From Comamonas sp. lk (lineage in GTDB: Bacteria > Pseudomonadota > Gammaproteobacteria > Burkholderiales > Burkholderiaceae_C): a stretch of DNA of 64,000 nucleotides. The position numbers and the translations under genes are program-made. Below the pieces are notes generated by a model. The model ran no database searches, was not told the origin of the DNA, and saw only the letters and a program-made list of their open reading frames with translations. The stretch is taken from positions 1 through 64,000 of the forward strand of contig CAMBNY010000001.1 of the NCBI GenBank assembly GCA_945869165.1, in the 5' to 3' direction. The stretch's first letter is position 1; each line of letters begins with the position of its first letter. This document shows positions 61,572 to 64,000 of this stretch, one piece after another.

Positions 61572-62162
61572 TTACCGCCGGTCCACCAAGGCATGCGCAA
61601 TCGTGCCAAGATCTACGTATTCGAGTTCACTACCCACCGGCACACCGCGCGCCAGGCGCGTCGGGTTCAGGCCCTTGGCGCGCAGACCTTGGGCGATCAC
61701 ATGCGCCGTGGCCTCGCCCTCGGCTGTAAAGTTAGTCGCCAAAATCACCTCGCGCACGATGCCGTCACAGGCGCGGATAAACAATTTATCCAAGCCCAAT
61801 TCATGCGGCCCAATACCGTCGAGCGGGCTGAGCTTGCCCATCAACACGAAGTAAAGCCCGTGATAAGCCCCAGTGCGCTCCATAGCGGCCTGATCGGCGG
61901 GCGTCTCTAACACGCACAGTTGGGTGTGGTCGCGACGGCTATCCAAGCAAGTGGCGCACACCAGGTCCTGGGTAAAGGTGTGGCAGCGTTCGCAATGGCG
62001 CACATTCTCACTGGCCTCTTGCAAAGCGCGCGCAAGTGCTTGGGCGCCAGGGCGGTCGCGTTGCAATAAATGAAAAGCCATACGCTGCGCGGATTTGATA
62101 CCGACGCCGGGCAGGCGCCGCAAGGCCTGAATTAATGCGTCCAGTGCGTGCGCGTCAGACAT
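61572..62162 (-). CDS. recR: recombination mediator protein RecR
   Basis: A 196-residue RecFOR pathway protein. The N-terminal helix-hairpin-helix is [20 protein letters not shown]; the zinc finger cysteines are in [18 protein letters not shown]; the Toprim domain has [46 protein letters not shown] and ends at [22 protein letters not shown]. It follows ybaB by 34 bp in the dnaX-ybaB-recR operon. Confidence 0.96.
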
Positions 62163-62196
62163 CGCGCCATGCTCTTGCTTGCAAAATAATCACGCT

Positions 62197-62523
62197 TTAA
62201 AACGGAAGCTTCATGCCAGGTGGCAAACCGGCGGTGATCTTGGCCATTTTTTGGGCCGAGGTTTCTTCGGCCACGCGCAAGGCTGCGTTAAAAGCCGCGG
62301 CCACCAGGTCTTCCAACATGTCTTTGTCGTCGGCCAGCAGACTGGGATCGATCGTAATGCGTTTGACCTCATGCTTGCAGGTCATGGTGACTTTCACCAG
62401 ACCCGAGCCGGACTCACCACTCACTTCGATATGGCCCAACTCGTCTTGGGCTTTTTTCACGTTGTCTTGCATGGCCTGGGCCTGTTTCATCAGGCCGGCA
62501 AGTTGTCCTTTATTGAACATCAA
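62197..62523 (-). CDS. YbaB/EbfC family nucleoid-associated protein
   Basis: A 108-residue dimeric DNA-binding protein. [33 protein letters not shown], then [25 protein letters not shown] and [18 protein letters not shown] are the full YbaB pattern. Located between dnaX and recR, as nearly everywhere in proteobacteria. The upstream gap to dnaX is 62 bp. Confidence 0.95.
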
Positions 62524-62585: not shown

Positions 62586-64000
62586 CTACAAAGGCCGGAT
62601 GCTACCGGGAACAATTTTCGCGCCAAAGTCGCGCACCCAGCTTTGGACCCATGGGTTATTTTGGATGATGGTCTCGGCAGCCTGTTGGCGTTCTGCACTG
62701 GCGCTGGCATTGCGGCGTGATGGGCTGTCGACAACCCGCCCCACCTCGACCGTCAAAACCACCGCATGCCCTGTATCCTGCAAGGCTTGGGCTAAGCGGT
62801 CCCGGCTGCCAGCTTGGTTAAGTGATTCACTCTCGACGCGCAAGATCCAATGGCCATCGTCGCGTCCGATGAGCTGTGATTGCAAGGCTAATTCGCGCGT
62901 CAGCGCGTTAATTGCCTGCGCCTGCACCAACGCCTGTACGGTCTGGTGCCAAAAATCACCATGCTCCGTCTCACTAAAGCCTGGTTTAGGGGCCGCCCTA
63001 GGCTGGTCAAGTCGACTCTCTTGTTGCACGCGCATCGGCACACCTACCACACGGTGCAAAGGCGCAGCATCAGGTGGCACACCCACTTGGGGACGCTGTG
63101 AATTGCCCGCGCTACCCTGCGCTTGCGGGTGAAGTGGGGCTCCATCGTTCAAGTCAAGGTTATGCACCGACAAGATCTGGCCAGGTGGAACTTCAGGCTC
63201 CACTGGGGCAACTGCAAGCTGGCCTTGGGCCAGCGGCTTGGGCAAGGCCGTCTGCAAGGGCGCCTCTTGGTGTTGAACCGAGGGCGCGACGGGATTAAAA
63301 GCGGCGTGCGACGCCGATTTCAGAGTTTTTTTTTCCACTGCAGGATCGGCGGCCTTCGCGGGCGCTGACATCGCTTGGTCTGCGGGCTTGAAAGCCAGTA
63401 AACGCAGCAACACCATCGTCAAGGCGGCGTATTCATCGGGGGCCAGACCCAAGTCGCCGCGCCCATGCAGGCATATGCTGTACAGCAATTGGGTTTCGTC
63501 GGCAGGAAGCGTTGAAGACAGACGCAAGATATCGCACTCTTCAGGGTCCACGCCATCGGAAAGATCCGTGCCCTCGCCCATCGACTGGTGCACCGCCATA
63601 CGATGCAACACGCTGGCCATTTCCTCAAGGGCCGAGGCGGCACTGAGTCCCTGCACACGCAAACTGTCCACGGTTTCCACCACGGCGCGACCATCGGCAC
63701 GCGCGAGCGCGTCGATGAGTGAAAACACATAGGAGCGGTCCACACTGCCTAGCATCTGACGCACTGCCGCCTCGGAAACTTGTCCTGCACCAAAAGCAAT
63801 TGCCTGGTCTGTCAGGCTCAAAGCATCGCGCATGGAACCGCGCGCGCCGCGCGCCAGCAGGCGCAGCGCAGCTGTATCCGCAGCCACCGTTTCCTCGGCC
63901 AAGACATGCTGCAAATGTTCAAAAATAGTTTGCGGCGGCATCGGCCGCAAATTAAATTGCAAACAGCGTGAAAGCACAGTGACGGGCACTTTTTGCGGAT
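62586..64000 (-). CDS. dnaX: DNA polymerase III subunits gamma/tau, 5' end outside window
   Basis: The C-terminal 470 complete codons of dnaX, open through the right edge. The visible part starts in the ATPase domain with PQKVPVTVLSRCLQFNLRPMP (sensor 1/arginine-finger SRC motif), continues through LARGARGSMRDALSLTDQAIAFG (sensor 2) and domain III, and enters a Pro/Gln/Ala-rich linker at about visible residue 215. Domain V-like sequence lies near the C terminus (FWHQTVQALVQAQAINALTRELALQSQLI). An A9 tract at visible residues 222-224 (GAA AAA AAA ACT) could allow frame slippage to a shorter gamma form. Confidence 0.95.
   Translation of the reverse strand, partial: PQKVPVTVLSRCLQFNLRPMPPQTIFEHLQHVLAEETVAADTAALRLLARGARGSMRDALSLTDQAIAFGAGQVSEAAVRQMLGSVDRSYVFSLIDALARADGRAVVETVDSLRVQGLSAASALEEMASVLHRMAVHQSMGEGTDLSDGVDPEECDILRLSSTLPADETQLLYSICLHGRGDLGLAPDEYAALTMVLLRLLAFKPADQAMSAPAKAADPAVEKKTLKSASHAAFNPVAPSVQHQEAPLQTALPKPLAQGQLAVAPVEPEVPPGQILSVHNLDLNDGAPLHPQAQGSAGNSQRPQVGVPPDAAPLHRVVGVPMRVQQESRLDQPRAAPKPGFSETEHGDFWHQTVQALVQAQAINALTRELALQSQLIGRDDGHWILRVESESLNQAGSRDRLAQALQDTGHAVVLTVEVGRVVDSPSRRNASASAERQQAAETIIQNNPWVQSWVRDFGAKIVPGSIRPL
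63295..63334 (-). promoter_or_regulatory. candidate programmed frameshift/slippage site in dnaX
   Basis: On the coding (minus) strand, nine A residues (63326-63334) read as GAA AAA AAA ACT in frame. Nine bases later a perfect 6-bp GC-rich hairpin follows, CGGCGT-CGC-ACGCCG (63302-63316). The -1 frame, or one extra A, meets TAA at 63295-63297; the +1 frame, or one lost A, meets TGA at 63320-63322. The site lies just after domain III, where the gamma form would end. dnaX slippage is established in E. coli (ribosomal) and Thermus (A9, transcriptional); it is inferred here. Confidence 0.65.

Follow-up and report, generated by a model that had tools for sequence, protein, structure and literature searches.

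In the dnaX gene of Thermus thermophilus, according to the relevant passages of PMC1088944, PMC5009743 and PMC3711429, tau is encoded in one ORF that carries nine sense-strand A's and has near stops in both non-zero frames. E. coli dnaX uses a -1 ribosomal shift on A AAA AAG, with an upstream Shine-Dalgarno-like stimulator and a hairpin, and in two-ORF dnaX genes with A7-A10 tracts (Chlorobium and others; Antonov et al. 2013) slippage has been predicted, both as described in the pertinent part of PMC3711429. According to a review passage (PMC3290774), most other bacteria have kept no frameshift signal in their dnaX and perhaps produce no gamma. Surveys of disrupted ORFs overlook sites at which a product is shortened: one such survey omitted them as hard to predict (in the passage concerned of PMC1088944), and missing them is named as a drawback of the approach in a section of PMC4066793.

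Here we describe a dnaX site of Comamonas sp. lk that lies in the window, by which we mean the whole 64,000-nt stretch of DNA that was analysed. Judging from the comparisons below, this single gene very probably gives rise to a long and a short clamp-loader protein by RNA polymerase stutter at an A9 tract. The site shares with its Thermus counterpart the nine A's, the single tau ORF and the close stops in both shifted frames, but it belongs to the Betaproteobacteria, where it occurs across Comamonadaceae, slippage is here predicted from sequence, and the tract lies 61% along the ORF rather than at seven-eighths (the Thermus value as given in part of PMC1088944). With E. coli it has in common the gene, the expected shortened gamma, an A-rich slippery site and an early -1 stop; it differs in its A AAA AAA heptamer, the lack of upstream pairing, an unconserved hairpin and a conserved +1 stop, and the E. 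coli type is matched better by the Polaromonas-type loci described below than by the site in the window. The two-ORF genes likewise have a poly-A tract in dnaX, but they need recoding to make tau, whereas in the window dnaX tau comes from the zero frame and gamma would be made by recoding. While the kind of site is already known, its occurrence throughout a family and a switch within that family appear unreported among the matches listed in the open-access literature, which include no paper on dnaX recoding in Comamonadaceae.

The dnaX gene and its A9 tract

The dnaX ORF has 636 codons and runs beyond the window end to about contig position 64496 (Table 1). It encodes tau in one open frame, with Pfam matches to the ATPase and lid parts at residues 24-238, to domain III (PF12169) at residues 240-369 and to the alpha-binding domain V (PF12170) at residues 510-632; the A9 tract, corresponding to residues 388-391, falls in the linker between domains III and V. 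Downstream on the same strand, two ORFs at window positions 61572-62523 resemble what we take to be ybaB and recR.

Table 1. Features of the dnaX recoding site, in window coordinates
Feature	Position	Strand	Remarks
dnaX (tau ORF), 3' part	62586..64000	-	Pfam PF13177, PF22608, PF12169, PF12170
A9 slippage tract (candidate), T9 on the + strand	63326..63334	-	Phase G/AA AAA AAA A/CT, common to 142 of 215 distinct loci
TGA, +1 frame	63320..63322	-	1 codon past tract; +1 stop so placed in 116 of 142 A9 loci
TAA, -1 frame	63295..63297	-	10 codons past tract; -1 stop within 10 codons in 136 of 142 A9 loci
Downstream hairpin, role doubtful	63296..63322	-	Core 63302-63316; not conserved

The codons at the site read GTG GAA AAA AAA ACT CTG. 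They contain the heptamer A AAA AAA in frame; the E. coli heptamer A AAA AAG is absent, the next base being A. The sequence-only reading of this DNA had pointed to tandem in-frame AAA Lys codons within an A9, to a downstream hairpin and to stops in both alternative frames, and the observation of an A9 site in dnaX with flanking stops and hairpin is confirmed at the positions given in Table 1.

Tracts of this length are few in the 2.64-Mb, 84%-complete assembly, which has five A9 sites with both strands counted. We take the other four to be one that follows a terminator-like inverted repeat, two that precede apparent gene starts and one at the start of ftsY; by ORF reading, dnaX and the ftsY start are the only coding-looking sites among the five. 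Sixteen other genomes of the family have between 2 and 18 A9 matches each (overlapping windows counted). The ftsY start, which encodes MFSFFKKK, has its A9 at L064:1501-1509 (G000:C5:42531-42539). Within the same genus this tract ranges from below A6 to A9 and is A9 in 4 of 13 readable starts (16 loci); not being conserved in the genus, it looks incidental and can thus be used as a control for dnaX.

Conservation across Comamonadaceae

The comparison covered 226 dnaX loci from the window's order and named relatives, taken from 110 of 199 matching family genomes, from the best 80 of 591 named loci (a sample biased to close relatives) and from other families of the order; removal of identical domain sequences left 215 loci, and a further 46 from other families were kept outside this set. 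Site class was scored between codons +190 and +245 only, and L025 (A9 at +355) and L030 (A10 at +269) are therefore classed as having none, as is L113, which has N's in its tract. So scored, the 215 distinct loci comprise 142 with A9, two with A10, one with A8, eight with A AAA AAG and 62 with none. Since the loci are related, the A9 counts do not represent independent events; on the domain tree the A9/A10 label requires eight changes.

Whether close relatives break up the A tract by synonymous changes had been singled out as a check, and they do not: all 24 loci coded as the window's genus retain A9, with the phase unchanged. The same-genus search took in 24 other genomes, two of which (G008 and G010) gave no match; in 23 same-genus loci the +1 stop comes after one codon in 21, and the -1 stop after 3-10 codons in all 23. 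Beyond the genus, other family members outside named records (n=107) include 78 loci with A9, two with A10, four with A AAA AAG and 23 with none, and named Comamonadaceae (39 distinct loci) include 30 with A9, four with A AAA AAG and five with none. A9 is found in loci named Rhodoferax (6 of 7), Acidovorax, Variovorax, Hydrogenophaga, Limnohabitans, Ramlibacter, Diaphorobacter, Pseudacidovorax, Pseudorhodoferax and Comamonas (1 of 2). The tract-free named Comamonadaceae loci include L198 (named Comamonas) and L211 (named Rhodoferax), the latter a contig-end ORF that has no Lys-Lys at the site either. No A9 occurs in the 10 named Sphaerotilaceae loci, and among 15 loci of other families of the order 14 have no tract and one has A8; genera without the tract include Roseateles, Rubrivivax, Ideonella, Lampropedia, Allofranklinella, Burkholderia, Nitrosomonas and Oxalicibacterium. 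Relatives that have no tract must either produce gamma by another route or lack it.

Phase variation by replication slippage was considered and rejected: among the 215 rows the site shows only A9 (142), A10 (2) and A8 (1), the lone A8 sits in another family and in another phase, and no run at the site is longer than A10.

Several observations stand beside this pattern. In the 46 extra loci, a run of at least eight A's after codon +150 is present in eight, with both stops within limits only in L278. Sporadic A9 or A10 tracts are seen in dnaX of other families of the order (L242, L025/L250, L274, L278, L282 and L030); in L278 and L030 both shifted frames soon run into a stop, and independent origins of slippage are possible. 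The A10 variants L082 and L102 read GAA AAA AAA AAG, combining a long tract with the heptamer A AAA AAG, and have near stops in both frames. Three MAG records, titled Akkermansia muciniphila (L200), Cytophagales (L202) and Bordetella parapertussis (L225), carry a dnaX that groups with Comamonadaceae or Sphaerotilaceae rows and are probably mislabelled bins.

Flanking stops and synonymous codons

Around the tract of the 142 A9 loci, a -1 stop lies within 10 codons in 136 and a +1 stop within three codons in 131, as against 22% and 6% of control positions in the same genes. The +1 stop stands exactly one codon past the tract in 116 of the 142, compared with 1.5% of control positions, and both stops fall within these limits in 125, compared with 1.2% of 11,421 control positions in the same genes; the exceptions are 11 loci whose +1 stop is more than three codons off and six whose -1 stop is more than 10 codons off. 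The tract together with its two stops goes far beyond what chance would give, which is not true of the hairpin by itself. When amino acids were kept fixed and codons redrawn from each gene's usage in 300 runs, both stops were obtained in at most 29 loci (125 observed), the -1 stop within 10 codons in at most 45 (136 observed) and the +1 stop at exactly one codon in at most 95 (116 observed).

Where the codon for the Leu past the tract is CTN, it yields a +1 stop in 115 of 118 loci: the base after CTG is A in 98 of 101 cases, the base after CTA is A or G in 17 of 17, and CTC or CTT is used in 0 of 118, although these two make up 26% of CTN codons elsewhere in the same ORFs (1,941 of 7,394). This preference, together with the absence of CTC and CTT, indicates that the +1 stop is held at the synonymous level. 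Because the A9 class is defined by its tract, the codons of the tract are by themselves no evidence; what counts as evidence is the stops, the +1 signature and the tally across the genus.

Structure downstream of the tract

The 6-bp hairpin that the sequence-only reading placed 9 nt past the tract exists, with perfect pairs and a 3-nt loop, and its stem is even longer: five extra pairs beyond one mismatch bring it to 11 bp and -11.2 kcal/mol. Its folding z is -2.77 on a 36-nt stretch but only -0.34 on 61 nt that include the tract and flanks. The window's own tree clade has five rows; folding is strong in L001, L002 and L012, weak in L013 (-6.6) and of a different kind in L154 (-15.9), and the consensus fold of the five reaches -5.3 kcal/mol with an unfavourable covariation term.

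Measured against dinucleotide shuffles, the A9 set has a folding z of -0.30 to -0.43 at offsets 3-15, as compared with -0.05 to -0.26 at offsets 45-120 and about -0.48 upstream; downstream structure near the tract exceeds shuffles marginally. Raw mean folding energy is strongest just past the tract (-17.6 kcal/mol at +10, about -13 beyond +75), where GC content likewise peaks, and windows folding at -12 or better number 97-100 of 142 at offsets 9-15 versus 58-74 at offsets 45-120. As a conserved stimulator the hairpin was rejected as a family trait, close relatives being without it, and in the window it is probably incidental or a lineage accessory. Thus, of the expectation that relatives would keep tract, hairpin and stops in a varying linker, the part concerning the A9 and its flanking stops stood and the part concerning the hairpin did not. 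A downstream hairpin would in any case still be untranscribed while the polymerase sits on the tract, and so could not help slippage.

Loci with A AAA AAG

Eight loci (L057, L068, L131, L132, L185, L189, L201 and L207) carry A AAA AAG at codons about +213 to +224; they comprise Polaromonas, a lineage with L131, L132 and L201, and L207. Upstream Shine-Dalgarno-like pairing is strong in all eight (-6.8 to -12.2 kcal/mol), the -1 stop follows 1-3 codons on, and the distance to the +1 stop is 4-140 codons, two of the eight having it at 4 or 5. These loci have in common an upstream G-rich block and a GCCGYCG motif at fixed spacing, for which shared descent, transfer or a shared signal are possible explanations, and some show possible inverted repeats immediately before the heptamer.

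On the domain tree the A AAA AAG loci are nested in the part that holds the A9 loci, many forks being weak. The protein tree requires three changes for A AAA AAG, and a DNA tree built on 89 of the 215 rows (the eight A AAA AAG loci, a sample of A9/A10 and part of the rest) does not reject a single A AAA AAG clade (p-AU 0.603), so that anything from one to three switches is possible. On this comparison, which concerns eight related loci, a small sample possibly of one origin, the A AAA AAG class appears to have exchanged slippage for ribosomal shifting within the family, a direction that the nesting suggests.

Mechanism and alternative readings

We posit that the A9 tract is likely a programmed transcriptional-slippage site of the kind known from Thermus thermophilus dnaX. 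RNA polymerase copying the T9 template would slip and produce mRNAs with 9, 10, 11, 8 and other numbers of A's. Those with 9 (or 9 plus or minus 3n) would be translated into tau, of 633 aa should translation begin at Met4 of the ORF, and the others would run into the TGA one codon on or the TAA ten codons on, giving a gamma-like protein of about 388 or 397 aa that ends past clamp-loader domain III and is without the polymerase-binding C-terminus. The predicted C-termini of the short forms are EKKL in the +1 frame and EKKNSEIGVARRF in the -1 frame. A gamma-like short form cut after domain III, as the sequence-only reading had proposed, is strongly supported as a prediction by the conservation of tract length, phase and both stops in a linker that varies. 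We infer, within this proposal, slippage itself as well as the ratio and the function of the products.

One feature that separates the candidate mechanisms is the +1 stop. Conserved one codon past the tract, it is useful only if the +1 frame is also entered, as by loss of one base or gain of two in transcription, while a -1 ribosomal shift needs only the heptamer and the -1 stop; the comparison favours polymerase slippage. It is unlikely that gamma arises in the E. coli manner, with ribosomes making a programmed -1 shift on A AAA AAA under stimulation from the hairpin. The in-frame heptamer, the hairpin at 9 nt and the -1 stop ten codons on would all suit such a shift, as would the strong hairpins in three of the five rows of the window's clade and a mean folding energy that in the A9 set is strongest directly after the tract. 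Yet those five rows share no common hairpin, folding z near the tract goes little beyond that at other places, and the upstream pairing is missing: anti-Shine-Dalgarno pairing of -6 kcal/mol or better is found in 14 of 144 A9/A10 loci, like controls (9.6%), and the best at the window's site is -3.3 kcal/mol. Nine rather than seven A's and the conserved +1 stop would also go unexplained, and the A AAA AAG relatives have a more distant +1 stop and do show the upstream pairing. The earlier remark that the site shows traits of both mechanisms holds only in a formal sense. Slippage is marked by the A9 and the +1 stop; the hairpin, the single additional trait of a ribosomal shift, is unconserved even in the window's own clade, and the Shine-Dalgarno-like pairing is absent. 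Since A AAA AAA is itself a -1 slippery heptamer, some ribosomal shifting at A9 is possible, and the hairpins of L001, L002 and L012 are placed such that they could help, and might give an accessory ribosomal share in the window's lineage. We nevertheless regard as quite improbable a dual arrangement in which the base level comes from polymerase slippage and ribosomes shift on the tract as well, aided by the hairpin in the window's lineage: the sequence requirements of each mechanism are present, but the hairpin is no family trait, and the comparison contains nothing that needs it.

There is scarcely any prospect that the tract simply follows from a need of tau for a conserved linker peptide, Ala-Glu-Lys-Lys-Thr-Leu. 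The peptide is well conserved in the A9 set (Lys-Lys in 142, Glu in 140, Thr or Ser in 142 and Leu in 118 of 142), but stops in both frames exceed what the amino acids permit in the codon-redraw simulation, Lys is AAA in only 36% and Glu GAA in 41% of cases elsewhere in these ORFs, and none of the 71 rows without A9 or A10 has [EQ]KK[TS] in other codons at the site. By the simulation and the absent alternative codons, protein-level constraint was rejected as the cause of the tract. The content of tRNA-Lys, suggested in connection with slippage in Thermus (a passage of PMC5009743), was likewise rejected as a reason for slippage: in a pattern-based search, with ARAGORN run on six short stretches, anticodons CTT and TTT were both found in G007, whose dnaX has A9, and in G221, whose dnaX has A AAA AAG, so tRNA-Lys does not separate the two classes; in the incomplete G000 only TTT was found.

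Significance

Here, outside both the enterics and Thermus, most of a bacterial family keeps a dnaX signature under strong apparent selection, and that signature uses a tract that is rare in these genomes. Two putative mechanisms, on A9 and on A AAA AAG, occur inside one family, where they can be compared side by side. We lean toward the reading that most Comamonadaceae slip on a fixed A9, that at least one nested lineage, Polaromonas and its allies, has rebuilt an E. coli-type shift, and that selection holds the gamma output. In this rebuilding, A AAA AAG would have been gained along with the upstream pairing, and the +1 stop, no longer needed, would have moved away. If this is true, selection acts on the output of gamma and not on the level of gene expression that produces it, and a switch of mechanism would be visible inside one bacterial family.
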